From: Reinekea thalattae
Lineage (GTDB): Bacteria > Pseudomonadota > Gammaproteobacteria > Pseudomonadales > Natronospirillaceae
NCBI RefSeq assembly: GCF_008041945.1
Contig: NZ_VKAD01000001.1
Span: forward strand, 124,001-188,000
Direction: 5' to 3'
Length of the DNA: 64,000 bases
The translations under genes were made by a program, and so were the position numbers. Numbering within the stretch: position 1 is the first letter of the stretch; each line of letters opens with the position of its first letter. Under the pieces are notes generated by a model. The model saw only the letters and a list, made by a program, of their open reading frames with translations. It did not search any database and was not told the DNA's origin. This document shows, piece by piece, positions 46,742 to 64,000 of this stretch.

Positions 46742-47548
46742 TTACTGGCCTTCATAGGCTTTCAGTTTTTCAGCGAAGTACTCTACATTGGTGCCGTAAG
46801 GACCTAAGCCCATTGACTCTTTGCGCCATTCGTTAACTTCAGCAAAGGCTTCCTCAGCAGGGCGTAAGAACTGAACGTCTTTGATCCAGTAATATTTAAA
46901 GCCACTGAAGTTACCGTTTTTAGGGTACCAGTAGAATACGCCGAAGCCAGATGGATCTTCGATTGGCGTATTGTGGATGGTGTTGCCAGGAATATAAAAA
47001 TACTGCCCCGTTTCCATCCACTGGTATTTACCTTGCGAAAGTGTACGTGCACGGCCAGAAACCGCGTAGTAACACTCAGGTTGGCCGTGGAAATGTGGTG
47101 CGTGGTCAGAAGGCTTACCATTGGTAATACCAATCGTGACAGGCCAATCACTGAGTTCTTTCCAAAGATAACCAACAGGAGCGTTATCTAGGCTACATTG
47201 AGCCGCTTCTAATACGTTACCATCGTCATCAATTGTTAAGCAGCCTTGGTTTTCTTTTGGAATGCTTTTGTCTGATTTAATGGTTTCAAAGTTAACTTTG
47301 CCTGCTTCCCAATCTTTAATGTAGGCCTCGATCGTTGGGTTAGAGCACTGCTCTGGCATAGTATCTTGAGGCGCATAAGGACTGGTTACATAGGGTACAG
47401 GTGTCGCCTGTTGGAACGGCTGCTGTGCCCGAACAAAGTGACCATGCTCGCTCATGTTAATGGTGGTGTGATCTTCTGCACTGGCTTGGCTTGTTGCTAT
47501 TGCTATTAGTGCTGGGACTACGGTCGTTAAAAGTAAAGCTTTCTTCAT
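46742..47548 (-). CDS. Periplasmic cupin protein, DMSP-lyase-superfamily-like metal site
   Basis: 268 residues. A signal peptide (MKKALLLTTVVPALIAIATSQASA) indicates the periplasm. The cupin core (about 140-190) has 'HAPHFHGQPECYYAVSG', giving H-x-H-x3-E-x-Y, and the distal His in 'YFYIPGNTIH', 32 residues after the Tyr. The same ligand spacing with that Tyr is reported for DddK-type DMSP lyases, though H-x-H-x3-E...H alone is general to cupins. It lies 281 bp downstream of tmm on the same strand. Tmm can oxidise dimethyl sulphide, so a DMSP-cleaving neighbour would make sense, but no acrylate-handling genes are present. An unrelated role with methylated amines is equally possible. Confidence 0.8.
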   Translation of the reverse strand: MKKALLLTTVVPALIAIATSQASAEDHTTINMSEHGHFVRAQQPFQQATPVPYVTSPYAPQDTMPEQCSNPTIEAYIKDWEAGKVNFETIKSDKSIPKENQGCLTIDDDGNVLEAAQCSLDNAPVGYLWKELSDWPVTIGITNGKPSDHAPHFHGQPECYYAVSGRARTLSQGKYQWMETGQYFYIPGNTIHNTPIEDPSGFGVFYWYPKNGNFSGFKYYWIKDVQFLRPAEEAFAEVNEWRKESMGLGPYGTNVEYFAEKLKAYEGQ

Positions 47549-47829: not shown

Positions 47830-49197
47830 TTAACCGACTTTTGGCACCTCGCTGCTCTCTGCCAGATAGGCTTCAAGGGAATCGTCTAAAGCATCGATCC
47901 ACGGAGTGTGGTGTGCCGGCGACATTGAACCTGTCATCAACGAGCGGAAAGAATAATCACGGAACGTCATGATGTTTTCTTTCTTATGGTGCTTCCACTC
48001 TAAGAAGGTTTTATTGACGCCGGCAACGTCGAAGGTGGGGTAGTCTGTCGCCTCAATTAATTCAAGAATATAGTCGCCCTGATAGGTATACATTTCTTCG
48101 GCGGTTTCGAGCGTTAATTCACGCTCACGCCAAGCCATGCTGTCGGCGGTCATCTCTTCAGTGGTTGCTGGTAGTGGAATTTTTCCAACAATAAGATCAC
48201 GCACATACCAAGCTTGGGCGTCGAACATATTGAAGGTGTACCACTGGTCCTGCATACCTAAATAAAACAGTTTTGGGTTAGCTTCCCAGGCAACGCCTTT
48301 ATAGAGATTCAACGGCCATAAGCGGTTGTCGGTTTTTAAACGTAGCGACTCTTCCATGAATGGGAAATGATGCAGGTAGCCAGTACATAAAATAATGGCG
48401 TCGACCTGTTCGCTGGTGCCATCTTGGAAGTAGGCTTTATCGGTATCGACTTTAATTAGATTGGGTTTTTCATCCCAGTTGTCTGGCCATTTATAACCCA
48501 TAGGCGCGGTTCGGTAACAGTTGATTAAACGCTTAGCGCCGTATTTGTAGCACTGCGAGCCGATATCTTCAGCGGAGTAACTGCTGCCAATAATCAACAC
48601 GGTCTTGTCTTTAAACTCTAATGCATCGCGGAAATCGTGGGCATGAAGAATGCGGCCTCCAAACTTACTGAAGCCTTCAAATTCAGGTACGTTTGGTGTT
48701 GAGAAGTGGCCCGAGGCACAGATAACATAGTCAAACTCTTCGCTGTATACGTTGTCTGTATTGTGGTCGTGAACGGTTACCGTGAACAGCTGGCTTTCAT
48801 CACTAAACTCAACATGACGCACAGGTGTGTTGAAGCGAATGTACTTACGAACACCAGCCTTCTCTACGCGTCCTTTTATGTAATCCCAAAGCACTTCGCG
48901 TGGCGGATAGGAGGCAATCGGTTTACCAAAATGCTCATCAAAGCTGTAGTCAGCAAATTCCAAACACTCCTTCGGACCGTTAGACCAAAGGTAGCGATAC
49001 ATACTGCAATGCACTGGCTCACCATTTTTATCTAAGCCGGTGCGCCATGTGTAATTCCACAGGCCACCCCAATCTTCTTGCTTTTCAAAACAAACTAATT
49101 CTGGAATGTCTTCGCCTTTTTCTTGCATTGACTGAAAGGCTCGCAGTTGCGCTAAACCACTTGGGCCTGCACCTATGATCGCAATACGTGCTGTCAT
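47830..49197 (-). CDS. tmm: Trimethylamine monooxygenase (FMO-type)
   Basis: 455 residues, the usual size for bacterial Tmm. '[18 protein letters not shown]' is the FAD-binding motif, '[23 protein letters not shown]' the NADPH-binding motif, and '[21 protein letters not shown]' the FMO-type C-T-G-Y motif. '[51 protein letters not shown]' is highly characteristic of Tmm. It oxidises trimethylamine to TMAO with NADPH and O2; known Tmm enzymes also oxidise dimethyl sulphide to DMSO. GGAGA precedes the ATG by five bases. Upstream, on the same strand, lies a candidate activator site at 49293. Tdm, the next enzyme, is across the regulator operon. Confidence 0.95.
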
Positions 49198-49292
49198 AAT
49201 CGTCTCCGGTTAGTGCTAATTCTCAACGTTCAGGCTGCATTATTGATTACAGCGTTATTGCGACTAATAAATCACGTTAGCTGGGGTAAAAA

Positions 49293-49310
49293 AATTCCTA
49301 CGAATGGGTA
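49293..49310 (-). promoter_or_regulatory. Candidate NarL-type activator site, tmm promoter
   Basis: On the minus strand TACCCATTCGTAGGAATT, matching the shared consensus TAYYCMYTCKDRRGRATT. TACCCAT fits the NarL heptamer TACYYMT. It ends at a T-rich poor -35, with an AT-rich -10 region about 17 bp further, and is 96 bp before the tmm start. Confidence 0.6.
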
Positions 49311-49346
49311 ATTCAAAGGGGGTAAGCAAGGGTATTTTGGGCAATG

Positions 49347-50141
49347 TTAGTCGTGATTTTTTCGTTGCGTCTGAAAAATAAATCCTTCAACACCGAGCAC
49401 AACACCGCTTTCAGAATATTGGCCGTGACCCTTGTCTCTTACCCAAATTTCTTTGCCATCTTTTTGTACTAAAACATATTCCAAGTCAAAGCTGCTGTAT
49501 TGTTGCAATGCGCCCTGTACACCTTCCCAAACATAAGAGGCGTAATCGGGATGAATCATGGTGCCGATGCTGATTTCCAATTGATTCAATAATTCATCGG
49601 TGGAGTAACCGGTTAAGGCTTGGCAGCCGCCGCTGACATAATCGATGGTCCAGCTAATATTGTTGCGTGTTCGATACAGCATGGCCGGTAGGCGATTAAC
49701 CAAACTTTGCAGGCTGCGGTGACTGGCTTGGCGAATCTGTTCGTTACGAACTTGCGGAGTGATATCGCACAGCGTCGCCGATAAGGGGTACAGACTAGAC
49801 TCCCGCATTGATTGAATACGCATTTCACACCAGCGGAATTCACCGCTGCTGTGTAATAGGCGAAACCAAATAAGCTCGCTCTGATCAGGACTGAGTCGCT
49901 GCAATAATTGATGCCATTGGTTGATATCTTCTGGGTGAATAAAATGATTCAGTGGTAGGTCTAAACTCTGATCGACGCTGACACCTGTTAAATTTTGCCA
50001 GCATTGATTTACCGTTAAAATTTTCTGATCTTTATCCAAGGCGAGTACAACGTCATTTAAACTATTGAATAACTGCCAGAGGTGACGTTCAGATAATTCT
50101 TTGTTTGTGTTTTTGATCGGCCATTTCAGTAGTGCCATCAT
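49347..50141 (-). CDS. PAS-PAS protein without output domain
   Basis: 264 residues. A first PAS domain (about 20-130, 'LFNSLNDVVLALDKDQKILTVNQCWQNLTG') and a second (about 145-258, 'LPAMLYRTRNNISWTIDYVSGGCQALTGYSTDEL') with a PAC-like segment 'YVLVQKDGKEIWVRDKGHGQYSESGVVLGVEGFIFQT'. There is no kinase, GGDEF, HTH or membrane segment. It lies 6 bp after the response regulator stop, in one operon with the soluble kinase. Inferred role: a small-molecule or redox sensor passing its state to the kinase. The ATG could equally be the second one, three bases on. Confidence 0.82.
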   Translation of the reverse strand: MMALLKWPIKNTNKELSERHLWQLFNSLNDVVLALDKDQKILTVNQCWQNLTGVSVDQSLDLPLNHFIHPEDINQWHQLLQRLSPDQSELIWFRLLHSSGEFRWCEMRIQSMRESSLYPLSATLCDITPQVRNEQIRQASHRSLQSLVNRLPAMLYRTRNNISWTIDYVSGGCQALTGYSTDELLNQLEISIGTMIHPDYASYVWEGVQGALQQYSSFDLEYVLVQKDGKEIWVRDKGHGQYSESGVVLGVEGFIFQTQRKNHD

Positions 50142-50147
50142 AGACCC

Positions 50148-50819
50148 CTAATTCATTTCATCTTCCGTCAAATTCTTATGCGCCCATGCGGCTAACTCTA
50201 GGCGAGAATGCATCCCCAGTTTTCGCAATAGGTTTTTAACGTAGACTTTTACAGTGCCATCGCTAATACCCAGTTCACGGGCGATGAGTTTATTATTCAG
50301 GCCTTTGGCAATGTAGAGTAACGTCTCGCGCTCGCGTTCGGTCATATCGGCCAGAGTTGCATGATTATTGGTTGACTCCAATTGACTGCTTTCTCTTAAA
50401 TGGCTGGCTATGGATGTTACAGCGTCGGCGTTTAAGGCGATGTTGCCATCAATAACAGACAGCAAATGGCTGAGTAATTCATCCGGTGGCGTGTCTTTTT
50501 GCAAGTAGCCGTTGGCGCCATATTTGAGTGCTTCTAGCATTTTTTCCTGTTCGGTACAGGCCGTCATGATGACAATTTTTAATTGCTCATTACATTCCCT
50601 TAACTGTTTGAGTAAGGTCAGTCCGTCTTTATCGGGCATTTGTAGGTCGAGCAATAAAATGTCTGGATAGGCCGCTTCTAGATTATCCAGCAGGCTAAAG
50701 GCATTGTTGTATTCAGCAATAACTTGCATCTGTTCGCTGTCATTCAGTAGCTCAACAACGCCACGTCTAAACAGTGGGTGGTCATCGACAACAGCGACTT
50801 GAATGGCTTGTTCACTCAT
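50148..50819 (-). CDS. NarL/FixJ-family response regulator
   Basis: 223 residues. A receiver domain (about 5-122) has acidic residues in 'VAVVDDHPLFR', the phosphoacceptor Asp in 'DILLLDLQMPDKDG', and the Lys in 'YLQKDTPPDEL'. A LuxR-type HTH (about 155-215, 'LADMTERERETLLYIAKGLNNKLIARELGISDGTVKVYVKNLLRKLGMHSRLELAAW') follows. GGAGAG precedes the ATG. It is 14 bp after the kinase gene, so the two form a two-component pair. It is the obvious candidate to bind the TACYYMT-type sites before tmm, tdm and the dimethylamine monooxygenase genes. Confidence 0.93.
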   Translation of the reverse strand: MSEQAIQVAVVDDHPLFRRGVVELLNDSEQMQVIAEYNNAFSLLDNLEAAYPDILLLDLQMPDKDGLTLLKQLRECNEQLKIVIMTACTEQEKMLEALKYGANGYLQKDTPPDELLSHLLSVIDGNIALNADAVTSIASHLRESSQLESTNNHATLADMTERERETLLYIAKGLNNKLIARELGISDGTVKVYVKNLLRKLGMHSRLELAAWAHKNLTEDEMN

Positions 50820-50833
50820 AGTTCTCTCCGATT

Positions 50834-52015
50834 TTAAGACTCAGAAGAGTCTTCGACGTTTAACAATAGCCGAGTTTGGCTGCCGCCCTGATCACGATTG
50901 GTAATCGATAGGCTGCCGCCAATGCGCTCGGCCCGTTCACGCATAATTTGCATACCAAAACTATCGCGTCTTGCCGCAGAAGGCTCGATGCCGATGCCGT
51001 TATCTTCGATAACCACTTCCAGTTGGTTGCTGTTAACAGGGTTTAATAAAATGCTGGCATAGGTTGCATGCGAGTGGCGAACAATGTTGCTCAAGCTCTC
51101 TCGAATAATGTACAGGATTTGCAACGACTGCTTTGGGCTCAGTGTGTTAATGCGCATACGATTATCCAATTCAAAAAATATCGCAGACTGGTGTTTAAAT
51201 TCATTGATTGAATTAATAACGCCTTCAGCCAGGTTGTCCGTTTGCATGGTGATGCGTGAAGAGGTGATCAGTTCGCGAGTTTGACGGTAGGCGCATAAAG
51301 TGTAACTGCGTAAGTCTTCGGTGATCGGCTGTAATTCTTTATAGGGTTCTTGCTGGCAGAGCTTATCGAGTTTGGCGCTTTTAATACGCAAGTAGCCCAA
51401 CACCTGTGCCAGTGAGTCATGTAATTCTGCCGCGTAAATTGAGCGCTCTGTTTGCAGTGCGTTTTTTACTCGCTGCTCACGTTGATACCAGGCGTAAATA
51501 CCTTTCATTAAGCCTTGTTCAATGGAGCTAAGGGCCCAGTTTATTTTTTTACTGTCCGGTACTTTATCGTCGAAACTGCACAGTAACCAAACCACCACCT
51601 TGTCATACCTTAAGATTCGTTTGGCGAGCAATTGCCAATGCTTAGATTGGTGCGAAATGGTGAGTAATTCGTTTTCGGCTGGCGTGTTTTTGGTGAACTC
51701 TCGATGCAGCGACTGCAATAATTTTGGATGCGGTTGGTTTTGTTGCGCATGATGTACATAGGTTTCTGAGGTTTCTGGCATCGAAAAAATCACCAAAAGA
51801 TCGCACCGCTGTCGGCTGGTAAATAAATCATTCAGTGACATCTGTAAGTTTTCGATAATGCGCGGTAAGCGTTCACTTAACTGATCGGCCGTGGCTAATT
51901 CAAATGCTAAATCATTAAGGTCTGGAGCCTTGATTGGTTTATGCACTGTCATTGTTTGCGAGGTCAATAGTGGCAGATCGATACTCTGCAACCACTTTCT
52001 TATCGTTAGTGCCAT
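50834..52015 (-). CDS. Soluble NarX-type histidine kinase
   Basis: 393 residues from the ATG at 52015, where GGGAG lies six bases upstream; an in-frame GTG at 52060 is the alternative. The HisKA_3 phosphoacceptor box is 'YAAELHDSLAQVLGYLRIKSAKL', and the ATPase domain has 'YIIRESLSNIVRHSHATYASI' (N box) and 'VVIEDNGIGIEPS' (G1). The N-terminal 190 residues form a degenerate sensor region with no membrane helix or signal peptide, unlike NarX itself, so it must sense an internal signal or a partner such as the PAS-PAS protein of the operon. Divergent from tdm. Confidence 0.9.
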   Translation of the reverse strand: MALTIRKWLQSIDLPLLTSQTMTVHKPIKAPDLNDLAFELATADQLSERLPRIIENLQMSLNDLFTSRQRCDLLVIFSMPETSETYVHHAQQNQPHPKLLQSLHREFTKNTPAENELLTISHQSKHWQLLAKRILRYDKVVVWLLCSFDDKVPDSKKINWALSSIEQGLMKGIYAWYQREQRVKNALQTERSIYAAELHDSLAQVLGYLRIKSAKLDKLCQQEPYKELQPITEDLRSYTLCAYRQTRELITSSRITMQTDNLAEGVINSINEFKHQSAIFFELDNRMRINTLSPKQSLQILYIIRESLSNIVRHSHATYASILLNPVNSNQLEVVIEDNGIGIEPSAARRDSFGMQIMRERAERIGGSLSITNRDQGGSQTRLLLNVEDSSES

Positions 52016-52186
52016 TGCGCGCTCCCACGTTACTTTCTGATCACTCAACTTCCTGATCACTCATTATCAAGATTGAGACTGCTGTTCTGATTCGTATGTT
52101 CTTGGTACGTATGTTCTGAGTACGGACATTTGAAGGGCACTATCTATGCCATAAATTTAATTTTTATTTTACTAACCCAAAAGGGG

Positions 52187-52204
52187 TATTCCCTCTGGAG
52201 GATT
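52187..52204 (+). promoter_or_regulatory. Candidate NarL-type activator site, tdm promoter
   Basis: TATTCCCTCTGGAGGATT, preceded by GGGG, matches the shared consensus TAYYCMYTCKDRRGRATT. It abuts TTGCCT (52203-52208) as a weak -35, with an AT-rich -10 region about 16 bp further. Confidence 0.6.
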
Positions 52205-52280
52205 GCCTGAATTTTCCTACTGGTAAATATTTATTAACTGAAAAGCGGACTCCATTCAACAGCAAAGTAGGAGTGGAAGG

Positions 52281-52409
52281 ATGCTCAGCTTTGGTGACGC
52301 GAAGGTCTTTATTCGCACTCATAAGGCGCATTATTGGATGTTGTTAGGCTTTAGTCGTAGGGCTGATTTCCAGTGCACAGCAACGACAATTTATTTTGTT
52401 AAGACGTGA
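52281..52409 (+). CDS. Possible small ORF in the tdm leader
   Basis: 42 codons, ATG preceded by GGAGTGGAAGG, starting MLSFGDAKVFIRTHKAHYWM. It lies within the likely tdm 5' leader. There is no family resemblance; it could be a leader peptide or chance. Confidence 0.25.
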   Translation: MLSFGDAKVFIRTHKAHYWMLLGFSRRADFQCTATTIYFVKT

Positions 52410-52448
52410 TTTTATGAATAACAGAGTTCCATTGCGTAGGGTGAAAGT

Positions 52449-54779
52449 ATGCGTGAAGAGCAACAGAGTGATGGCGATGTTTCAGAGCTTTATAATTTTA
52501 GTGTTGATCGTCCAGTAGACAAGCAGCTGTTTAGAATTGATGCGCAAAAGGCATTGGCGTTAACGCTGAACAAAGGCGATCAGTTAAAGCTAGACAGCCC
52601 AGACCAAGCTCAGATTTGTGAAATTTTGGTGCTCGATGAGCAGGGCCAGTCGGTACCTGAGGCATTGAGTCAGCAAGCCGTTTCGGTGGCAGAGCAAACC
52701 TTAAAACAGCTGCAAGGCAAGGGTGCTTCGGCAAAGCAATTACAGCAACAGTTTGATGCTTGGGGGATTGAAGAATCTCATCTCAACAAGGCGTTGCAGT
52801 TTTCCGGTGAAGGCAGTGTTTTTTTAGAAGTGGCTGAGCCGGTGCGAGTTATTTTTATTGCCGCAGGCGAGGACATGCTGGTTGAGCAACATACGCCAGT
52901 CGGTGAAGTGCATCTTACCGTGCAATATGCGTCGCCGTGGAGTGAATACCTGCCGGAGCCGTTGGCAGAAGTTAAAGAAGAAATTCGTATTCCGCGCGAA
53001 ACCGCACGCAGCTACGAAGTTAAAGCCGGTGAGTGGATCCAAATTATCGATGTTTCTGGTAAGCAGTGTTCCGACTTTCTGGCCTTTGATCGTGCCGAGT
53101 TAGTTGCCGGTAACGAGCTGGGTTTAGACTCAACCGCGACTCGCTCGGTTATGTCTAGATCAACGCCACAGCCTGGCTTGTTTTCACGATTTTTAGCCAG
53201 CGACATGCAGAGTATGGTTGAGGTTGTGCAAGATACCGTTGGCCGTCACGACAGCTTTTTAATGGCCTGCAATCCAAAATATTACGAAGACAGTGGTTAT
53301 TTTGGCCACAAGAGTTGCACCGATAATTTTAATCGCGTGTTGTCCTTTTACGACATTGCACCGCGCGCCGCTTGGCCTGCGATTAATTTCTTTTTTAACA
53401 CCGGTGTAGAGCCTTGTGGCACCGTCTTTATGGATGAACCTTGGTCTCGTGCTGGCGACTATGTCTTGCTGCGAGCAACGCGAGATCTTGTCTGTGCATC
53501 GTCCGCTTGCCCTGATGATATCGACCCTGCCAATGGTTGGAATCCTACCGATATTCATGTCCGTATTTATGACGCAGAAAACGAATTTCCTCGTGCCAGT
53601 GCGCATCGACTTTTACCTGAGGAGTTGCCTCGAATGACTAAGACCACCGGTTTCCATAAGCCGATTTCTGAAATGACTAAGCAGTTGAGCGAATATCGAG
53701 GCTACTGGGTTGCATCGGAATACGAAGGCTGGGGCGCAAAAGCAGAATATTTAGCCTGCCGTGAACGCGTTGCCATGATTGATCTTTCGCCACTAAGAAA
53801 GTTTGAAGTAACTGGGCCAGATGCCGAAGCCTTTTTGCAATATGTGCTGACTCGTAACGTGCGGCGGTTGGCGATTGGTGAAATCGCTTACTCTGCAATT
53901 TGCTTTGATACCGGCGGCATGATCGATGACGGTACGGTTTTCCGTATGAACGAACAAGCCTTTCGCTGGGTTTGTGGCGACCCTTACACCGGTATTTGGA
54001 TGCGCAATAAAGCGCGCGAAAAAAACTACCGCGTCAATATCCGAAACTCAACCGACCAGCTGCATAACGTAGCCGTTCAAGGCCCAGAAAGCCGTAACTT
54101 ATTGCGCGAAATTATTTGGTCGGCAGAATGCCAGCCTAGTATGGACAGCCTAGCCTGGTTCCATTTTTTGATTGGCCGAATCGGTGGTCCAGAAGGTATT
54201 CCGGTTATGGTTTCACGAACTGGCTACACCGGCGAGTTGGGGTTTGAAGTCTGGTGTCACCCTGATGAAGCAGAGCTCGTTTGGGCTGCAATTTGGAGCG
54301 CGGGCGAAAAATATGGCATTGCGCCGCTCGGTTTTGATGCACTCGATATGTTGCGAATTGAAGCCGGATTAATTTTTGCTGAGCATGAATTCTGCGCCGA
54401 AACCAATCCTTTTGAAGCTGGAATTGGTTTTACCGTGCCGTTAAAAACAAAGGAAGATGAGTTTGTAGGTCGTCAGGCAATCGCGCGTCAGGCGCCAGAA
54501 AGCCGCAAAAAATTAGTCGGTCTTATTTTAGATCAGGATGAGCCAGCAGAGCATGGTGATCAGGTTTTTCAGGGCCGTTATCCGGTTGGAATTATCACCA
54601 GTGCAACGCCTTCGCCATTACTCGGCAAACAAATTGCATTATGTCGAGTCGCCCCTGAATTTGCGCAGGCGGGGACTGAACTAGAAGTAGGGAAGTTAGA
54701 TGGCCATCAAAAACGGCTGTCAGCAACGGTAACTACGTTGCCATTTTACGACCCAGACAGAACCCGAGTTCGTTCTTAA
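52449..54779 (+). CDS. tdm: Trimethylamine N-oxide demethylase (DUF1989-GcvT fusion)
   Basis: 776 residues. After an N-terminal region (1-170) comes a DUF1989 domain (about 175-385) with cysteines in 'GKQCSDFLAF', 'GHKSCTDNFN', 'VEPCGTVFMD' and 'CASSACPDD' able to bind metal. A C-terminal GcvT-type tetrahydrofolate-binding domain (about 415-770, 'YLACRERVAMIDLSPLRKFEVTGPDAEAFLQYVLTRNV', 'GYTGELGFEVWC') follows. This two-part architecture defines Tdm, which splits TMAO to dimethylamine and formaldehyde and can pass the one-carbon unit to folate. It is not a glycine-cleavage T protein: no gcvH or gcvP is near. It is the first gene of the plus-strand run and carries its own activator-like site upstream. 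Confidence 0.94.
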   Translation: MREEQQSDGDVSELYNFSVDRPVDKQLFRIDAQKALALTLNKGDQLKLDSPDQAQICEILVLDEQGQSVPEALSQQAVSVAEQTLKQLQGKGASAKQLQQQFDAWGIEESHLNKALQFSGEGSVFLEVAEPVRVIFIAAGEDMLVEQHTPVGEVHLTVQYASPWSEYLPEPLAEVKEEIRIPRETARSYEVKAGEWIQIIDVSGKQCSDFLAFDRAELVAGNELGLDSTATRSVMSRSTPQPGLFSRFLASDMQSMVEVVQDTVGRHDSFLMACNPKYYEDSGYFGHKSCTDNFNRVLSFYDIAPRAAWPAINFFFNTGVEPCGTVFMDEPWSRAGDYVLLRATRDLVCASSACPDDIDPANGWNPTDIHVRIYDAENEFPRASAHRLLPEELPRMTKTTGFHKPISEMTKQLSEYRGYWVASEYEGWGAKAEYLACRERVAMIDLSPLRKFEVTGPDAEAFLQYVLTRNVRRLAIGEIAYSAICFDTGGMIDDGTVFRMNEQAFRWVCGDPYTGIWMRNKAREKNYRVNIRNSTDQLHNVAVQGPESRNLLREIIWSAECQPSMDSLAWFHFLIGRIGGPEGIPVMVSRTGYTGELGFEVWCHPDEAELVWAAIWSAGEKYGIAPLGFDALDMLRIEAGLIFAEHEFCAETNPFEAGIGFTVPLKTKEDEFVGRQAIARQAPESRKKLVGLILDQDEPAEHGDQVFQGRYPVGIITSATPSPLLGKQIALCRVAPEFAQAGTELEVGKLDGHQKRLSATVTTLPFYDPDRTRVRS

Positions 54780-54799
54780 AACTAGGCCTTGGCCTAGTT
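54780..54799. terminator. Perfect inverted repeat after tdm
   Basis: AACTAGGCC-TT-GGCCTAGTT directly follows the tdm stop. There is no T-run after it, so it may be a weak terminator or an mRNA-stabilising hairpin before the cupin gene. Confidence 0.6.
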
Positions 54800-54907
54800 G
54801 AGAAAGATCCGTTCGTTAAAATTCTTTTAGTATTTACCTAGCCTAATTATTAACAGAATTTTTTAGCGAATTGTTAACAAGCCAAATAAACCAGAAGGGG
54901 AAAATCA

Positions 54908-55267
54908 ATGGCTGAAGCAATGACGTACTATGAGAAAGCAGTAAAAACAGATCTACCAACAATGGGAGTTCCCGGTGTTAATGCATTTTTAGGTGACATT
55001 GCGGTCTCTAAAGATGAGGATAAAACCATTGTTGCTGGTTTTTATCGAATGGAAAAATCAGACGAGCCATTGGTTTATGAATATCATTATCACGAAATGA
55101 AAATTATCGTTGAAGGTGAAATGATTATTTCAGATGCAGCAGGCAATGAAGTTCACGCGACAGCTGGCGATGTATTTTATTTTCCGAAAGGCAGTGTTAT
55201 TACCTTTCAATCGCCGAATTATGGTATTGGATTCTTTTGTGGCCAGCGTAAAGAAGGCGAAGCCTAA
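54908..55267 (+). CDS. Small cytoplasmic cupin (EutQ-like)
   Basis: 119 residues, a single cupin domain. 'VYEYHYHEMKIIVEGEMIISDAAGNEVHATAGDVFYFPKGSVITFQSPNYGIGFFCGQ' gives H-x-H-E...-type ligands and resembles EutQ-like cupins. AGAAGGGG precedes the ATG. It lies between tdm and amt, so a role in methylamine or formaldehyde metabolism is likely, but the reaction is unknown. There is no signal peptide. Confidence 0.82.
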   Translation: MAEAMTYYEKAVKTDLPTMGVPGVNAFLGDIAVSKDEDKTIVAGFYRMEKSDEPLVYEYHYHEMKIIVEGEMIISDAAGNEVHATAGDVFYFPKGSVITFQSPNYGIGFFCGQRKEGEA

Positions 55268-55397
55268 GCTTCACTAATTTAAGCCGGTAAAAACTTATTA
55301 CTACAAAGTTTTCTTTTAATTAAGAAACAAAAAAAGCAATCACATGTATTAGCCATTAATAACTTAAATCTGTTTTAGAGCAGTTGGAGAGAGTCAA

Positions 55398-56711
55398 ATG
55401 GATCAAACTGAAGTTGCAACAACACTAGCGAGCCTACAGGCTCAGTTAGACATGACAGGCATTATCAATATGGAAGTTTTTTATTGGTGGTGTACTGGCC
55501 TTATGGTGATCATTCACGCAGGTTTCTTGGCCTACGAAATGGGTGCATCTCGGCTAAAAAATGCATTGGCATCGGGTGTTAAAAACATTCTTGCTTTTGC
55601 CTTTATTATTCCTACCTTCTTCTTTTTTGGTTGGTGGATTTACCTTGCGATGTACAACGGATTTGTTCCAGATTTCGCAGCGGCAGCAGCCGGTTTGCCT
55701 TGGTCACAATATATGGGGCCAAACCTAACCGATAATGCCAGCGGTATTTTCTGGGGTGCATTCGTACTGTTTGCAGCAACAACCGCTTCGATTTTCTCGG
55801 GCGCTGTTATCGAACGTATCCGCATGAGTTCATTCATTGTACTGGCCATTCTTTTGGGCTCGGTTGTATGGATTCTTGGCGCATCTTGGGGCTGGCACCC
55901 AACCGGTTGGTTAACCGTTAAATGGGGCTTCCATGACTTTGGTGCTGCTGGTGCGGTACACATGGTTGCAGGCTTCTTCGCACTGGGTGTAACGATCAAC
56001 CTAGGCGCACGTTTAGGTCGCTTTGCTCCAGATGGCACGCCAGTGGATATCAAAGGCCACAGCATGCCAATGACGATCATCGGTCTTATGCTTATTATCG
56101 TTGGTTTCTTCGGCTTCCTAGGCGGCTGTATTATTTATGCAGGCAACGCTCAGTGGACGACCATCTTCGGTACGCCAGTAACGCTATCTGCTATTAGCTT
56201 CAATACCTTGATGGCATTCTCTGGCGGCATCATCGGTGCTTACTTCGTAACTCGTCAGCCATTCTGGATGATGTCTGGTGCGCTAGCCGGTATTTTCTCA
56301 GCAGCGCCAGGCTTAGACCTTTACTACCCACCATTGGCTTTCCTAATGGGTATCACTGGCGGTATCGTCACTCCATTGGTTGATAAGTTCATTACCAGCA
56401 AGTTCAAGTTGGACGATGCTGTTGGTGCTTTCGCAGTACACGGTGTCGGTGGCCTAATTGGTATCGTCGGTCTTGGTATCTTCAGCGGCTTCCCGAACGT
56501 TATCGAAGGTGCACCAAACATTACCTTCTTCGGTCAGTTAGCCAGTGCTGTTGTTATGGCGCTACTGGGCTTTATTCCTGGCTTTGTTGTGTCTTTCTTT
56601 ATGGCCAAAGCGGGCGCATTACGCGTACCACCAAAAGCCGAAGAAATGGGTCTGGATATCGTCGAAGTACCACTCGTCGCGTACCCAGAATCTGTACCTG
56701 CTTCTAAATAA
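55398..56711 (+). CDS. amt: Ammonium/methylammonium transporter (Amt family, divergent)
   Basis: 437 residues with about 11 membrane helices. The pore histidines are present, in 'FGAAGAVHMVAGFFALG' and 'FAVHGVGGLIGIVGLG', and the signature 'SIFSGAVIERIRMSSFIVLA' is a variant of the family's. Several conserved positions differ from AmtB (for example the 'GGTVVHINAG' block is 'AAGAVHMVAG'). No glnK is adjacent, unlike most amt genes; instead a 55-residue membrane protein follows. Location among TMA genes suggests uptake or recapture of ammonium or methylated ammonium. Substrate preference is inference. Confidence 0.92.
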   Translation: MDQTEVATTLASLQAQLDMTGIINMEVFYWWCTGLMVIIHAGFLAYEMGASRLKNALASGVKNILAFAFIIPTFFFFGWWIYLAMYNGFVPDFAAAAAGLPWSQYMGPNLTDNASGIFWGAFVLFAATTASIFSGAVIERIRMSSFIVLAILLGSVVWILGASWGWHPTGWLTVKWGFHDFGAAGAVHMVAGFFALGVTINLGARLGRFAPDGTPVDIKGHSMPMTIIGLMLIIVGFFGFLGGCIIYAGNAQWTTIFGTPVTLSAISFNTLMAFSGGIIGAYFVTRQPFWMMSGALAGIFSAAPGLDLYYPPLAFLMGITGGIVTPLVDKFITSKFKLDDAVGAFAVHGVGGLIGIVGLGIFSGFPNVIEGAPNITFFGQLASAVVMALLGFIPGFVVSFFMAKAGALRVPPKAEEMGLDIVEVPLVAYPESVPASK

Positions 56712-56758
56712 GTTACCATTTCAATCAATACTGCCAAGTGCAGTAAAAGGAGAACAGT

Positions 56759-56926
56759 ATGAATGCAAGTCCAATTACCAGCTGGGATGGCGCTGAAGCT
56801 TACTTCACGTTCGCTGACAGTCCTGTAGCTATGGGGATTATCTTAGTACTCTCTGTTGTTGTAACCGTTGGTGCCATTGTTGCCTCGGTTAAACATGAAA
56901 ACGACACCTATATTGATTATCAATAA
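56759..56926 (+). CDS. 55-residue single-span membrane protein following amt
   Basis: MNASPITSWDGAEAYFTFADS, then a hydrophobic helix 'PVAMGIILVLSVVVTVGAIVASV' (about 22-44) and the tail K-H-E-N-D-T-Y-I-D-Y-Q. AAAGGAGAA lies about eight bases before the ATG. It starts 47 bp after the amt stop, with a strong terminator behind it, so it is cotranscribed with amt. Not recognised as a named family; the position suggests a small partner or regulator of the channel in place of GlnK. Confidence 0.78.
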   Translation: MNASPITSWDGAEAYFTFADSPVAMGIILVLSVVVTVGAIVASVKHENDTYIDYQ

Positions 56927-57006
56927 GACGGCTATCAATAAGATGTTAGTTACCCCAAGGTAACTCGTTGTAACATCTTTGCCGCTTGCGGCAGTCGTTA
57001 AAATAA

Positions 57007-57040
57007 AAGCCAGTAATCCTTTGGATTACTGGCTTTTTTT
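57007..57040 (+). terminator. Terminator of the tdm-amt run
   Basis: A 13-bp perfect stem AAGCCAGTAATCC / GGATTACTGGCTT with loop TTT, followed by a T-run. Confidence 0.95.
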
Positions 57041-57150
57041 ATGCTGACTTTTTGCGTGGATCTGCATTTTATAAATAAATTTATTTTGCCCTAAGCAGTC
57101 CGTGTTTTTTTTGTATCCAACCTTGACCTCAATGCTTACCCCCATCGGGG

Positions 57151-57194
57151 TACTCCTTCTAAGGGATTGTTTAAATGGCTGTTAAAAATACTAT
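57151..57194 (+). promoter_or_regulatory. Candidate NarL-type site and promoter of the dimethylamine monooxygenase operon
   Basis: TACTCCTTCTAAGGGATT (57151-57168), preceded by GGGG, matches the consensus shared with tmm and tdm; TACTCCT fits the NarL heptamer TACYYMT. TTGTTT (57167-57172) and TACTAT (57189-57194) lie 16 bp apart. The site centre would be about 41 bp before the expected start point, the class II activator position. Confidence 0.65.
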
Positions 57195-57273: not shown

Positions 57274-57804
57274 ATGCAGTCAGACATCTTACCCGAGGTT
57301 GTCAGCAAGCCAGTTTATCGCTCTGTGGTAAAGCACCCTCGTGCTCAGCATCATCTGTTTGTCAGTAACGAACCGTTAACCGGCGCGGCTGAGTCGATTT
57401 TTAACAGCTGCGCGGAAGGTGAGCGCAGCCTCATTGTGGTAGCCGACAGTCAAAATTTGGCAGCCAATGTTGCTGAATTAGTATCCGAATTACCACTGGC
57501 AAGCTGCCTTTATTTAGCTGGTGAAGAATCCTTTATGTGGGTCGTTGCTGAATTGTTTTTTGCCGAGGGCTTACGCGAAGATCAGCTGCAGTTTTTTAAA
57601 CCGACTAGCCAAGGCCGCGCCATTTTTTGTTGCCACTGTTATCAGGTAACGCAAGGCGTAACACACAGCCCTTCGGCGTGCGCTGGTTGTGGTCGTTTGT
57701 TATTAGTGACTGATCATTTTTCGCGTAAAAATGCTTCTTATTTTGCCTACCAAGCCAATGCCGAAGATCCGCAGGATATTCCTAAAACGGAGAAGTTAAG
57801 CTGA
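57274..57804 (+). CDS. Dimethylamine monooxygenase small subunit, DmmA-like
   Basis: 176 residues. An alpha/beta N-terminal part (about 25-110) and a C-terminal zinc-ribbon-like site 'AIFCCHCYQVTQGVTHSPSACAGCGRLLLVTDHFSRK' resemble the DmmA-type family linked to dimethylamine monooxygenase. AGGAGGGC precedes the ATG. The stop TGA overlaps the ATG of the reductase gene (TGATG), so synthesis is coupled. With the next two genes it should convert dimethylamine to methylamine and formaldehyde. Letter assignment within dmmDABC is uncertain, so no symbol is given. Confidence 0.84.
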   Translation: MQSDILPEVVSKPVYRSVVKHPRAQHHLFVSNEPLTGAAESIFNSCAEGERSLIVVADSQNLAANVAELVSELPLASCLYLAGEESFMWVVAELFFAEGLREDQLQFFKPTSQGRAIFCCHCYQVTQGVTHSPSACAGCGRLLLVTDHFSRKNASYFAYQANAEDPQDIPKTEKLS

Positions 57805-58754
57805 TGAGTGCTGATCAAATCCTTGTTGAAGTGACCTCGGTGGTCGATGTTTCGCCGTCGATTCGAGAATTTACGTTAAGCCCGGTTAACGCCGAATTTT
57901 ATCCGTTTTCTCCTGGCTCTCACGTGGTTGTTGAAATGCCCGCAGCAAAGAAGACGATCAAGAATGCCTATTCTCTGTTGAGCGACCCACTGGATACCGC
58001 TGTTTATAAAATAGCCGTGCGTTTGCAAGAACAGTCACGTGGTGGTTCGGTTTATATGCACCAGCAGGTGACGCCGGGTGATCAATTAAAAATCTCACCG
58101 CCAGCCAATTTATTTGCGCCACAGTGGCAAGCTAAAAAACATATATTGATTGCCGGCGGTGTCGGTATTACGCCCTTTATGTCCTACTTGCCTGAGCTGG
58201 AACGACGCCTAGCCGATTACGAATTACATTATTTGTATCGTAGCGACTTTACCGGCGCTTACCGAAAAGAATTGGCCGAGCAATTGGGCGAGCGTTTTTT
58301 CGATTACGATTCTAGCCAGAGTCAACGCTGTGATCTGGCGCAGATTATGTCTGATCGCACGGTAGGTACGCACTTTTATATTTGTGGCCCAGAAGTATTG
58401 ATCGACAGTGTCAAGGCGCAAGCAGAAGCCTTTGGTATTCCTGCCAGTGTGATTCATTACGAAGAGTTTGCCGCACCTGCACCAGGTGAACCTTTTGAAG
58501 TGGAATTGAAAAAAACCGGTCAAGTTGTCTCGGTTAGTTCTGATGAAAGCATGTTAGAAGCCTTAGAGGCGGCGAATGTTGATATTCCTAATTTATGTCG
58601 CGGCGGCGTTTGCGGCCAGTGTGTTTGCCAAGTTGCCGACGGCGATATTGAACATCGCGACAACTTTTTATCGGAATCAGAAAAACAGGCGGGCACTGCT
58701 GTGATGCCATGTGTGTCCCGTGCCAAGAGTGATCGATTGGTCTTGGATATTTAA
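57804..58754 (+). CDS. Dimethylamine monooxygenase reductase subunit (FAD/FMN + 2Fe-2S)
   Basis: 316 residues. A flavin-binding barrel (about 1-105, 'NAYSLLSDPLDTAVYKIAVRLQEQSRGGSVYMH'), an NAD(P)-binding domain (about 110-220, 'HILIAGGVGITPFMSYL', 'HFYICGPEVLIDSV') and a C-terminal plant-type ferredoxin with 'CRGGVCGQCVCQ...C' give the phthalate-dioxygenase-reductase layout. It passes electrons from NAD(P)H to the haem-type oxygenase encoded next. Coupled to the gene before it by TGATG. Confidence 0.9.
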   Translation: MSADQILVEVTSVVDVSPSIREFTLSPVNAEFYPFSPGSHVVVEMPAAKKTIKNAYSLLSDPLDTAVYKIAVRLQEQSRGGSVYMHQQVTPGDQLKISPPANLFAPQWQAKKHILIAGGVGITPFMSYLPELERRLADYELHYLYRSDFTGAYRKELAEQLGERFFDYDSSQSQRCDLAQIMSDRTVGTHFYICGPEVLIDSVKAQAEAFGIPASVIHYEEFAAPAPGEPFEVELKKTGQVVSVSSDESMLEALEAANVDIPNLCRGGVCGQCVCQVADGDIEHRDNFLSESEKQAGTAVMPCVSRAKSDRLVLDI

Positions 58755-58777
58755 GCTTTATTGTGTGGAGTAATGTT

Positions 58778-59797
58778 ATGCGATTAGCACCAAAAGAAAT
58801 TCAAACCTTCCGGGATGACTTCACCTATACCAACAGTGCCGAAGCGATACGTCGATTTCCGTTCCCGTTTCCTGAAGACGAATACCGTTACAGCGTAAAC
58901 ATCGAACCACATGAGCCTAAAGACGGCGAAGGTTCGGTGTATGAAAATTTGTTGGACATTGATGAGCATTACCTTTCAGAAATGCACGAGCGTTCGTTGG
59001 TGTTAAAAGAAATGCCGCATCGTTGTTTAGCCATGGATCATATGGAACTGGCCAGCTGGGACATGATTGAACGCTGCATGACCTCGATGGCAGAAGATTA
59101 CCCAGAGTATTTTTCACTAACCAAAGAGGGTGAACACTGGACGTGGGAAAACAAACTGCTTGGTATTAAAGACGATTTTATTTTTGCCGACAGCGACTCG
59201 CTACCGATGCCGCCGTTAGAGTATATCGGCCGACAAGTTCAGGGTGACTTTGCTCTGCTTGACCAGCGTGACGGCGATCTATTTATGGACGCCGGTATCA
59301 TTACTTGCCCTGCCGATTGGTCGTTAGCGTTTGATGCTGGAATGAGTTTTTCACAATGGCACGGACCGGTGCCGATGGCGCATAAAGAGGGTATTTTTGA
59401 CCGAGCACTAAAATACCTGACGGCAATTCCAGTAGGTAAACCGGTGCGTCGATTAAATTGGACGTTGACAGTTAATGCCCGCATGGATACCGCGCCAGAA
59501 AACTACCACGAATGGGGCCATGAACGTACCAGTGTAACGCCTGAAAATGTCGGCGAAAAAGTTTACCTGCGCGTTGAGTTACAAGTGATCGACCGTATGC
59601 CGCGCAGCAATGCATTGATGTTCAGCATCCGAACCTATCTCATGAGTCTAGAAGATATCGTGACTAACCCACAGTGGGCGCAGCGGTTACATCGCGTCAT
59701 GAAAACCTTGCCGCCAGCACTGATTGATTACAAAGGCTTGTCCCGTTACCACAGTACCGTGGTGGATTACCTTGCTCATTTCGATCAAACCAACTGA
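58778..59797 (+). CDS. DUF3445 haem-dependent oxidative N-demethylase (dimethylamine monooxygenase subunit)
   Basis: 339 residues from the ATG at 58778, with GGAG seven bases upstream; an earlier in-frame start at 58763 lacks one. 'RFPFPFPEDEYRYSVNIEPHEP' at the start and 'DLFMDAGIITCPADWSLAFDAGMSFSQWHGPVPMA' are typical of DUF3445, the haem-dependent oxidative N-demethylase family. It is expected to be the oxygen-activating subunit, releasing formaldehyde from dimethylamine. It lies 23 bp after the reductase in the same operon. Confidence 0.9.
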   Translation: MRLAPKEIQTFRDDFTYTNSAEAIRRFPFPFPEDEYRYSVNIEPHEPKDGEGSVYENLLDIDEHYLSEMHERSLVLKEMPHRCLAMDHMELASWDMIERCMTSMAEDYPEYFSLTKEGEHWTWENKLLGIKDDFIFADSDSLPMPPLEYIGRQVQGDFALLDQRDGDLFMDAGIITCPADWSLAFDAGMSFSQWHGPVPMAHKEGIFDRALKYLTAIPVGKPVRRLNWTLTVNARMDTAPENYHEWGHERTSVTPENVGEKVYLRVELQVIDRMPRSNALMFSIRTYLMSLEDIVTNPQWAQRLHRVMKTLPPALIDYKGLSRYHSTVVDYLAHFDQTN

Positions 59798-59864: not shown

Positions 59865-61007
<1,143 letters not shown>

Positions 61008-61020
61008 TCGATTAAACGCA

Positions 61021-61053
61021 AAGGCTTATGAGCTGGTGAGTGCTCATAGCCTT
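61021..61053 (+). terminator. Hairpin between frmA and the formylglutathione hydrolase gene
   Basis: AAGGCTTATGAGC / GCTCATAGCCTT, with one bulged T and a loop of about eight bases. No T-run follows; likely partial termination or mRNA stabilisation. Confidence 0.5.
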
Positions 61054-61109
61054 GGCCGATAAAAACCGATTAAAGCTGCCAGCGGTACGAAGCGTAAGGA
61101 TAAAAAATC

Positions 61110-61949
61110 ATGCAACTTATCAGTAGTCAGGCTTTGTTTGCTGGCAAGTATCAACGTTATCAACACACTTCAGCGGCAACACAGTGTGACATGGTGTTTT
61201 CCATCTATTTGCCGCCAGCGGCATTGGCAGGAAAAAGTGTGCCGGTGCTGTATTGGTTGTCTGGCTTAACCTGTACCGATGAAAACTTTATGCAGAAAGC
61301 AGGGGCGCAACGTATTGCAGCAGAACTAGGCATCGCCTTAGTTGCACCAGATACGTCACCACGTGGCGAACAAGTCCCAGACGATGCTGACGCAGCTTAC
61401 GACATGGGTTTAGGCGCAGGGTTTTATTTAAATGCTACTCAGCCGCCATGGAATCAGCATTACCAGATAGAGCGTTACATTGTTGAAGAGTTGCCTGCCT
61501 GTATCGAAAGTAATTTTCCGGTGACTTCGCAAGCCAGTATTTCTGGTCACTCGATGGGTGGCCATGGCGCGTTGACATTGGCGTTAAAAAATCCGAAAAA
61601 ATTTAAATCTGTTTCTGCTTTTAGCCCAATTGTTAGTCCAATGAATTGCCCTTGGGGTGTTAAAGCATTGAGCCAATATTTAGGTGACGATCAAACAGTA
61701 TGGCAGCGTTACGATAGTTGCGCTTTGATCGAGCAGGGTGCAGAACAGTTGCCAATGCTGATTGACCAAGGCAGTGCTGATGACTTTTTAGAAGCGCAAT
61801 TAAAAACAGAGCTTTTGCTCGATACGCTAAACCGAAAAAACTATAAAGCGACAGTAAGAATGCAGCCAGACTACGATCATAGTTATTATTTTATTGCGAC
61901 CTTTATCGAAGAACACTTACGTTTTCACGCTGGTTATTTGTTGGATTAA
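61110..61949 (+). CDS. frmB: S-formylglutathione hydrolase
   Basis: 279 residues. 'VLYWLSGLTCTDENFMQKAGAQR' and 'APDTSPRGE' are family blocks, and the nucleophile serine is in 'SISGHSMGGHGALT'. The late Asp and His lie in 'LIDQGSADDFL' and 'QPDYDHSYYFIATFI'. It frees formate from S-formylglutathione, completing glutathione-dependent formaldehyde oxidation after FrmA. The symbol fghA is also used for this enzyme. Confidence 0.95.
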   Translation: MQLISSQALFAGKYQRYQHTSAATQCDMVFSIYLPPAALAGKSVPVLYWLSGLTCTDENFMQKAGAQRIAAELGIALVAPDTSPRGEQVPDDADAAYDMGLGAGFYLNATQPPWNQHYQIERYIVEELPACIESNFPVTSQASISGHSMGGHGALTLALKNPKKFKSVSAFSPIVSPMNCPWGVKALSQYLGDDQTVWQRYDSCALIEQGAEQLPMLIDQGSADDFLEAQLKTELLLDTLNRKNYKATVRMQPDYDHSYYFIATFIEEHLRFHAGYLLD

Positions 61950-62363: not shown

Positions 62364-62957
62364 TTAATCATCTGAGTAATAAATTAACGATAAAATTTCT
62401 ATCGGTACATCGGTTAGTTTTTCTGGCCCGTGCGGCAGCTCACCATTAAAGGCTAGGCTGTCACCTTCGGTCATTTCGTACATCTTATTACCCACGCGAT
62501 AGGTTAGTTTACCTTTCAGTAAATAAATAAATTCTTCACCTGGATGCGAAAAAGTAGGGAAGGTTTCGCTGAGATCATCGATGCTGACTAAAAAGGGTTC
62601 TAGGTGGCGATGACTACCGCGTTGGTAACCTAAAAGTCGGTAAGTGTGGCCTTTTTCTGTACCGCGCCGCACCACCTCGATGCCGTTTCCTGCTTTGGTG
62701 AAAAGAGCACCGCCGTCTGGCAAATTGTAATCGCTAAATAATTTAGCGACCGGAATACCAATGGCGTTACAGAGTTTGTCGATGGTTTCTAAACTGGGCG
62801 AGACTTGAGCGTTTTCGATTTTAGAAATCATGCCTTGGCTAATGCCAGAAATGGCAGCGATGTCGGTAATTTTTAATGCCTCAGCTAGACGTTCTCGCTT
62901 GAGTCGAATACCAACGTGACGATCTAAGGATGACTTATCTTCTTTGCTTTGGTTCAT
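62364..62957 (-). CDS. XRE-cupin transcriptional regulator
   Basis: 197 residues. An N-terminal XRE-type HTH (about 15-70, 'IGIRLKRERLAEALKITDIAAISGISQGMISKIENAQVSPSLETIDKLCNAIG') and a C-terminal cupin_2 domain (about 115-190, 'FPTFSHPGEEFIYLLKGKLTYRVGNKMYEMTEGDSLAFNGELPHGPEKL'). Such regulators (as PuuR or SutR) respond to small metabolites. Divergent from gmaS, so it probably controls it. A 22-bp palindrome lies about 22 bp from its start. Confidence 0.92.
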   Translation of the reverse strand: MNQSKEDKSSLDRHVGIRLKRERLAEALKITDIAAISGISQGMISKIENAQVSPSLETIDKLCNAIGIPVAKLFSDYNLPDGGALFTKAGNGIEVVRRGTEKGHTYRLLGYQRGSHRHLEPFLVSIDDLSETFPTFSHPGEEFIYLLKGKLTYRVGNKMYEMTEGDSLAFNGELPHGPEKLTDVPIEILSLIYYSDD

Positions 62958-63242: not shown

Positions 63243-64000
63243 ATGACCGTTAATACAGAAGCGTTTATTAAAGAAAATAATATCAAATATGTGCTTGCCC
63301 AATTTGTCGATATCCACGGTGTTGCAAAAACCAAGTCGGTGCCTGCGCATTGTTTACAAGATGTTGTCGACACCGGAGCAGGCTTTGCCGGCTTTGCAGT
63401 TTGGGGTTTAGGTATGGAACCGCACGGGCCAGATTTTATGGCGCGTGGTGATTTAAAGTCGATGACCGTGGTGCCTTGGCAACCAGGTTATGCTCGCATC
63501 GTTTGCGACGGCTATGTCAACAACGAGCCGTACCCTTACGACAGTCGAGTCGTTTTGAAAAATCAGCTAAAAGCATTTGATGAAAAGGGTTGGACATTAA
63601 ATACAGGTTTGGAGCCAGAATTTTCTTTATTCCAACGTCGCGAAGACGGACTGGTTGAAACGGTCGATAACAGCGATGTGTTGGATAAGCCCTGTTACGA
63701 CTATAAAGGCCTGTCTCGTTCACGCCAGTTTTTAGAAACCTTTGTTGAATCGCTACAGCAGGTCGGTTTGGATGTTTATCAAATCGACCACGAAGATGCT
63801 AACGGTCAGTTTGAAATTAATTACACCTACAGTGACGCACTCGACTCTTGCGACAGCTACACCTTTGTTCGTATGGCCGGTGGTGAAATTGCTAACGACC
63901 TAGGCATGGTGTGCTCCTTTATGCCAAAACCGGCTTCAGATAAAACCGGTAATGGCATGCATATTCACCTATCGTTGAGCGACAAAGACGGCAAAAACCT
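63243..64000 (+). CDS. gmaS: Gamma-glutamylmethylamide synthetase, N-terminal part (3' end outside window)
   Basis: 252 codons visible, ATG preceded by GAGGAGAG. '[27 protein letters not shown]' opens a glutamine-synthetase type III fold; '[18 protein letters not shown]', '[40 protein letters not shown]' and '[19 protein letters not shown]' give the metal-binding Glu and His of that family. GmaS joins methylamine to glutamate using ATP, the entry to the N-methylglutamate route. Location after the dimethylamine genes supports GmaS over ordinary GlnA or puuA-type enzymes. Possible mgs and mgd genes would lie beyond the window. Confidence 0.88.

Follow-up and report, generated by a model that had tools for sequence, protein, structure and literature searches.

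What controls trimethylamine (TMA) breakdown in Reinekea thalattae, and which regulator would act at the promoters concerned? The question is raised by a 64,000-nucleotide stretch of this genome (assembly GCF_008041945.1, contig NZ_VKAD01000001.1, positions 124,001 to 188,000 of the forward strand; hereafter the window, numbered from its first letter), in which the genes for trimethylamine monooxygenase (tmm), trimethylamine N-oxide (TMAO) demethylase (tdm) and dimethylamine monooxygenase (dmm) are each preceded by a copy of one 34-bp element. A preliminary description of this DNA had reported three copies of an 18-bp motif, each directed toward its own gene, and a NarL-like response regulator and kinase between tmm and tdm; all of these are present as claimed, although the motif is only the promoter-proximal half of the longer element. 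We consider it highly probable, from the sequence comparisons given below, that the NarL-type regulator belongs to a dedicated two-component system linked to these elements and to their target genes.

49293..49326, minus strand: 34-bp composite operator before tmm (18-bp motif at its promoter-proximal end, 49293-49310)
52171..52204, plus strand: 34-bp composite operator before tdm, also upstream of the divergent kinase gene (18-bp motif 52187-52204)
57135..57168, plus strand: 34-bp composite operator before the dimethylamine monooxygenase operon (18-bp motif 57151-57168)
47830..49197, minus strand: tmm, trimethylamine monooxygenase (828 bits, cut-off 675)
52449..54779, plus strand: tdm, TMAO demethylase (1075 bits, narrowly missing the curated cut-off of 1100)
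57274..59797, plus strand: dimethylamine monooxygenase genes (DmmA-like, reductase and HODM-like subunit; Pfam family matches)

Applied to the DNA preceding tmm, tdm and dmm genes in 13 loci, expectation-maximisation returned a single 34-bp element, ntTACCCCctttGagGTAcCCccTnngGgGaATT, the right half of which is the 18-mer. The upstream half, TACCCC-N4-GRGGTA, is close to the 7-2-7 site of Escherichia coli NarL, and the whole reads as four NarL-type heptamers (H1 to H4) paired into two 7-2-7 inverted repeats: H1 (TACCCC) pairs with H2 (GRGGTA), and H3 (TAYYCC) with H4 (GRGRAT), the latter repeat overlapping H2 by two bases and abutting the -35. Over 25 sites, H1 to H3 match TACYYMT or AKRRGTA at 4-7 of seven positions (one H1 at 3), and H4 at 3-6. 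The heptamer TACYYMT, previously described as exact at two sites, matches 7/7 at sites 1 and 3 and 5/7 at site 2. The left half of the operator at the dimethylamine promoter, TACCCCCATCGGGGTA, is a NarL-type 7-2-7 that shares its outer 12 bases with an engineered NarL site, TACCCCTAAAGGGGTA (PMC4549865). The 18-mer was ruled out as the complete operator, the left half being about equally informative. From the end of the motif to the gene start there are 95 bp at tmm, 244 bp at tdm and 105 bp at the first dimethylamine monooxygenase gene.

Chance occurrence of the motif was rejected by shuffles, genome counts and held-out matrices. The 18-bp pattern has three exact matches in the window and none in 100 shuffles, and the 2.94-Mb genome adds no exact match to these three, all at methylamine promoters; allowing two mismatches brings the genome total to 23 (3 exact, none with one mismatch, 20 with two), and a reversed control pattern gives 26. 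The pattern was merged from these very sites, which makes the count partly circular, and held-out models were therefore used. A matrix built without the window's family scored the window sites at 29.1, 29.0 and 28.4 bits and non-overlapping positions at no more than 12.5, and in 100 dinucleotide-shuffled windows its best score averaged 12.9 bits (largest 20.8). In a genome-wide search with a window-free model, for which 150 of 268 first-look candidates were scored, the three sites rank first in their own genome (E 7.7e-4, 2.5e-3 and 0.01; next 0.52), where the site was found solely at methylamine promoters. Extra matches at C1:2160791 in this genome, at C160:37596 in G296 and on C8 in G150 have no methylamine gene nearby and were discarded.

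The element recurs in the company of three genes that lie on the minus strand between tmm and tdm, with gaps of 6-14 bp, and that are here called the cassette:

50834..52060, minus strand: histidine kinase, 408 aa, predicted soluble, with HisKA_3 and HATPase domains, like the cytoplasmic part of NarX/NarQ
50148..50819, minus strand: NarL-like response regulator, predicted to bind the operator
49347..50141, minus strand: PAS-PAS protein without an output domain, third cassette gene and candidate co-sensor

The order was surveyed in 390 genomes, 29 of which (R. thalattae included) encode Tmm above the cut-off; the 28 others, together with one genome below the cut-off, supplied 29 fetched loci. 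Kinase, regulator and PAS protein are encoded in that order within 20 kb of tmm at 12 of these loci, all of which also have tdm there, and a thirteenth genome (G366) carries the cassette beside tdm and dmm, approximately 107 kb from tmm, which brings the cassette to 13 of the 28 other genomes of the order with Tmm above the cut-off. Across the class, Tdm was found at 1e-200 in 15 of 369 genomes, again including R. thalattae; among the 14 others, G533, from another order, is alone in having the cassette near tdm, absence from the remaining 13 referring to the fetched neighbourhood, which in some cases ends at a contig end. A genome-wide kinase search of the cassette-free tmm genomes of the order returned, G366 aside, kinases of 441-707 aa or nothing, and a contig scan with the kinase gave two loci only, one of them cut at a contig end. 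A contig from a Neptuniibacter metagenome-assembled genome (L054, 1-4130) holds a close relative of the cassette, with regulator, PAS protein and a kinase cut by the contig end; after it comes a convergent ptsP-like gene instead of tmm.

Presence of the cassette is mirrored at the promoters. Leave-one-family-out scoring of cassette-bearing loci (16-64 kb each) placed the best positions at tmm, tdm or dmm promoters in 12 of 13 loci, for 24 promoters in total; the exception is L100 (genome G314), where the highest score at the tdm site falls on the opposite strand (16.7, compared with 12.3 in the sense of the gene) and tmm fails. When 400 bp upstream of tmm and tdm were compared using family-held-out matrices, the 26 promoters of cassette-bearing loci had a median of 20.6 bits, and the 33 promoters of fetched loci without a cassette a median of 0.4 and a maximum of 10.2. 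Left out of this comparison were the operon-internal tdm genes of L091, L093 and L095, the tmm of G366 (L106), and L203 and L204, in which tdm starts at a contig end. The motif is conserved before tmm and tdm orthologues where the cassette is present, 24 of the 26 promoters exceeding all 33 cassette-free ones (Mann-Whitney p 1.7e-10, ignoring relatedness), and single halves of the element separate the groups nearly as well (right half 21/26, left half 23/26 above the negative maximum). Searched genome-wide, the window-free model gave E <=1 in 11 of 13 other cassette-bearing genomes (G533 being outside this set) and in 4 of 16 cassette-free genomes, none of the latter at tmm. Matches in G131 (two), G127 and G198 had E of 0.1-1, none of them at tmm, and near the stronger G131 match just a weak receiver-type match was seen; a match in G349, a cassette-negative genome, with E 0.0097 was rejected because it falls within a reading frame of the opposite strand.

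The promoters of tdm and tmm have orthologues in the other genomes, so that common descent by itself would leave some conservation, and the element might be no more than chance similarity or a promoter remnant inherited with the genes. We give this explanation almost no credence: the same element stands at three unrelated promoters of one genome, the 33 orthologous cassette-free promoters reach at most 10.2 bits, and 100 shuffled windows never attain the scores of the window.

The upstream region of tmm in L100 shows a row of TACCC-type direct repeats within approximately 140 bp of the gene, ahead of the operator core TACCCTGATCAGGGAATG, which suggests putative additional half-sites for the regulator.

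The properties of the regulator fit the form of the element. It matches PF00072 and PF00196 (GerE helix-turn-helix) above cut-off, has no AraC-type match, retains the phospho-acceptor Asp in 13 of 13 sequences and belongs to the NarL/FixJ (LuxR-type) family; it aligns with NarL over its full length (143 bits), and falls below the NCBIfam NarL equivalog cut-off (197 vs. 250 bits). The recognition helix reads KVYVK in 12 of 13 regulators and KIHVK in L091, compared with KVHVK in NarL, and differs in DevR and VraR. Residues K188, V189 and K192 of NarL, which we take to be the base-contact residues, are all kept in the same 12, L091 having Ile at 189. The regulator is also the best match in each of 15 cassette genomes, with the next far lower among the matches listed (97 bits at 33% identity in R. 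thalattae; 143 vs. 213 bits in G533).

Could the sites instead be bound by another protein, such as the XRE-cupin regulator encoded at 62364-62957 (minus strand) or a TmaR-like AraC-type protein, with the two-component genes mere neighbours? The XRE-cupin gene does recur near methylamine genes (L086, L089, L193 and L203), and TmaR controls the pathway in Ruegeria (PMC13390433). On the other side, the tdm and tmm promoters of L193 have no sites despite the XRE-cupin gene, in a locus with no cassette in the 20 kb fetched; sites built of NarL heptamers track a NarL-type cassette; and the upstream region of tmm in G366, where the cassette is unlinked, shows the core TACCCTCACTGGGGAATG by eye. We regard control by such another regulator as very improbable.

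Whether the NarL-type regulator would activate or repress is addressed by the position of its presumed sites relative to promoter-like sequences:

57167..57194, plus strand: putative promoter pair TTGTTT-N16-TACTAT, overlapping the operator end
52203..52231, plus strand: putative promoter pair TTGCCT ... AATATT before tdm, hexamer chosen by best match
49266..49294, minus strand: weak putative -35/-10-like pair TTTTTT ... TTTATT at tmm

The right end of the motif coincides with a weak -35, and TTGTTT-N16-TACTAT is present at the third site, both as first described; at tdm, ATTG followed by GTAAATATT recurs before the gene in relatives. If the -35 begins at the TT of ATT and is paired with the best -10 at a spacing of 15-19 bp, the centre of the second 7-2-7 would fall at -41.5 to -44.5 at the 25 sites and at -43.5 at 16 of them; as each -10 was chosen by best match, this geometry is a consistency check and not a measurement. 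In E. coli, the NarL site extends from -38 to -47 at yeaR and from -40 to -49 at napF (PMC4549865); NarL activates yeaR from a single 7-2-7 placed immediately before the -35, and at ogt it requires 7-2-7 sites in tandem, one of which abuts the -35 (PMC7419079). The predicted operators resemble those of NarL in their TACCCC...GGGGTA half-sites and in a predicted proximal centre near -43.5. The regulator might nevertheless bind and mainly repress, or its phosphorylation state might set the direction: NarL represses frdA from sites near the start (PMC4549865), the operators overlap the -35, so that binding could block polymerase, and TmoR, and mildly TmaR, repress tmm in Ruegeria (PMC13390433). 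We consider repression improbable, given that the predicted centre near -43.5 matches NarL-activated yeaR, napF and ogt and that the -35/-10 hexamers are poor, as expected of activator-dependent promoters.

The tdm operator lies in the divergent gap between the kinase gene and tdm, and could also serve autoregulation of the kinase gene. The tdm leader (52205-52448) is long (>200 nt), the operator-to-start distance in relatives being 137-244 bp. A known riboswitch in this leader was rejected, there being no Rfam gathering match (those in the window are three tRNAs only) and folding being no better than in shuffles (z -0.35).

As to the signal, the kinase aligns only with the cytoplasmic parts of NarQ (334-561) and NarX (262-587); no periplasmic nitrate sensor, transmembrane helices or HAMP part aligned. 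The usual hydropathy threshold for a membrane helix is 1.6, and the highest 19-residue values across 13 kinases are 0.59-1.47, with no membrane-helix segment in any. Residues H214, N325, D353-G355-G357 and G369 (H-box, N-box and G-boxes) are invariant in all 13, placing the kinase in the HisKA_3 class. Its N-terminal part is poorly conserved and has no Pfam PAS match; the kinase model (mean pLDDT 76) suggests here an alpha/beta domain before a long helix. By strand order this domain may be GAF-like; a fold search did not identify it, the top 50 entries listed including whole soluble kinases and cores of DesK type. Conservation is higher in the PAS-PAS protein, where 38 positions are invariant across 14 sequences (7 being Trp or Tyr); it models well as a tandem PAS (mean pLDDT 87), and is encoded with the kinase in all 13 compared loci as well as in L054, L158 and L201. 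The membrane-free kinase and its outputless PAS partner lead us to infer a cytoplasmic signal.

That signal is somewhat more probably than not a methylated amine or a product of one. A general cue (nitrate, oxygen, redox or nitrogen status) would be compatible with the link between regulator and operator, and is a less likely though substantial alternative. In its favour, the similarity of kinase and regulator is highest to NarX/NarQ and NarL, oxygen or redox state is a common input of PAS proteins (FixL and LOV-PAS proteins are among the matches to the PAS model), and both Tmm and dimethylamine monooxygenase need O2. Against it, the alignment with NarX/NarQ is confined to their cytoplasmic parts and the kinase has no predicted membrane segment, the site in this genome occurs at methylamine promoters only, and there is no narG above cut-off (other nitrate reductases were not searched for). 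A resident nitrate NarXL system was rejected in view of the latter result and of the lack of any other match to the kinase in the genome at 1e-20.

The extent of the regulon was weighed at the dimethylamine and later steps. After the dmm genes, closely spaced, follow

59874..61949, plus strand: S-(hydroxymethyl)glutathione dehydrogenase and S-formylglutathione hydrolase

and, from the spacing, these formaldehyde-oxidation genes are probably co-transcribed with dmm. A dmm promoter with its own site was found in the window, L088 and L092 only; in L091, L100/L156 and L158, dmm comes after tdm in what looks like one operon downstream of a site. By one or other arrangement dmm would be served in 5 of the 10 cassette-bearing relatives in which it was seen. 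As far as the sequences indicate, the dimethylamine operon is a predicted regulon member in some genomes only. The methylated-amine regulon under a two-component system put forward in the preliminary description is supported in that the element tracks the cassette, has NarL-type form and is matched by the recognition helix, and needs qualifying in that membership of the dimethylamine operon is inconstant. The next pathway gene, gmaS, starts at about 63243-63258 and runs past the right end of the window; beyond it, L208 (1744-13612) holds methylamine-cluster frames resembling mgs, purU, folD and mgd, names taken from translations and not from a family search; with gmaS these would make the pathway complete. 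The XRE-cupin gene, divergent from gmaS and found both with and without the two-component cassette nearby, is a candidate regulator of the monomethylamine (MMA) step from gmaS onward.

Two further cupin genes lie among those of the pathway: a small EutQ-like gene (54908-55267), which recurs beside tdm or dmm in L088, L089, L092, L155, L156, L158, L201 and L203, and, downstream of tmm, one for a cupin protein with a signal-peptide-like start (46742-47548). In L155, a 14.5-bit match lies just before cupin-dmm genes, on the opposite strand.

Several observations weigh against the proposed link or its generality. No site was found to drive dmm in L086, L087/L155, L089, L098 and L103 (5/10), and neither gmaS nor the frames following it showed a 34-bp operator in the genome-wide model search. 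That search also gave no site with E <=1 in cassette-bearing G314 and G366. Below the negative maximum of the promoter comparison fall the tmm promoters of L100 (0.6 bits; core 7-2-7 visible, H1 differently spaced) and L201 (5.6 bits); the tmm of G366 scores 5.2 bits, with a core recognised by eye alone, and at tdm the sites are weak (11-12 bits) in L158, L201 and L100. In 7 of 12 tmm sites H2 is degenerate (4-5/7) and the other three heptamers persist, so two overlapping 7-2-7 sites cannot be strictly required, and the poor -10 hexamers were picked by best match. Furthermore, true Tdm is absent from 15 of 17 searched cassette-free tmm genomes of the order (present in G131 and G366), so that cassette and pathway are partly confounded. 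The operator-cassette link can be told apart from presence of the pathway to some extent with G131, which has Tdm and no cassette (tdm upstream region 4.9 bits), and with the class-wide tdm loci: none of the 14 scored tdm promoters that lack a nearby cassette exceeds 4.9 bits.

Among known systems, NreABC of staphylococci combines a PAS-type kinase carrying an Fe-S cluster with a GAF nitrate receptor, and FlhSR of Paracoccus, an alphaproteobacterium, is a two-component system controlling C1 oxidation genes, its targets being those for methanol, methylamine and formaldehyde. The cassette resembles NreABC in that a two-component system of NarL type is accompanied by a sensory protein that is soluble and separate, and would work alike; it is not of NreABC type, the kinase lacking a Pfam PAS match and the accessory protein being PAS-PAS, unlike NreA, which has a GAF fold. 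With E. coli NarX/NarQ-NarL it has in common the HisKA_3 kinase core and the recognition-helix residues of the regulator, but the 408-aa kinase has neither periplasmic nitrate sensor nor membrane helices and stands beside a PAS-PAS gene, the targets are trimethylamine degradation genes, and the operator is an overlapping 7-2-7 pair. Control of TMA and TMAO breakdown is stated to have been unclear until 2026, when an AraC-type master regulator, TmaR, and a tmm repressor, TmoR, were reported for Ruegeria pomeroyi, with TmaR homologues in some gammaproteobacteria (PMC13390433). The coordinate control of tmm, tdm and dmm genes described there resembles the arrangement predicted here, although TmaR is AraC-type, TmoR is a repressor, and the part of that report considered here describes no two-component system (PMC13390433). 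Searches of the open literature by title or abstract start found no two-component system for tmm or tdm among the matches listed, subscription papers being mostly outside their scope; NarL-type signalling rewired to the trimethylamine pathway is new as far as the literature was searched.

We propose that the soluble NarX/NarQ-like kinase, probably joined in sensing by the PAS-PAS protein, would respond to a cytoplasmic signal reporting methylated amines or their breakdown and phosphorylate the regulator, which would bind as dimers. One dimer would occupy the promoter-proximal 7-2-7, centred near -43.5 and abutting the -35, and a further contact may be made at the upstream TACCCC half-site or 7-2-7, near -57.5. 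The bound regulator would then activate tmm and tdm, joined in this genome by the dimethylamine operon and its formaldehyde-oxidation genes. A bolder version, which we hold tentatively and at slightly less than even chances, is that the NarL operator code has been taken over by a three-part cytoplasmic sensor, built on a NarX-derived kinase free of the membrane and a PAS-PAS protein of its own, which directly reads a methylated amine or the oxidation state of one and drives the whole TMA-to-MMA and formaldehyde branch via the overlapping double 7-2-7 operator, as an alternative to the alphaproteobacterial TmaR circuit in one marine gammaproteobacterial lineage.

TMA and TMAO are important organic nitrogen compounds in the sea. 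For their breakdown, these gammaproteobacteria are predicted to depart from the AraC-type control of Ruegeria and to rely on NarL-type two-component control acting through a defined operator. Such a system would add a soluble candidate sensor of methylated amines, and would show the NarL operator code of nitrate regulation put to use in another metabolism.

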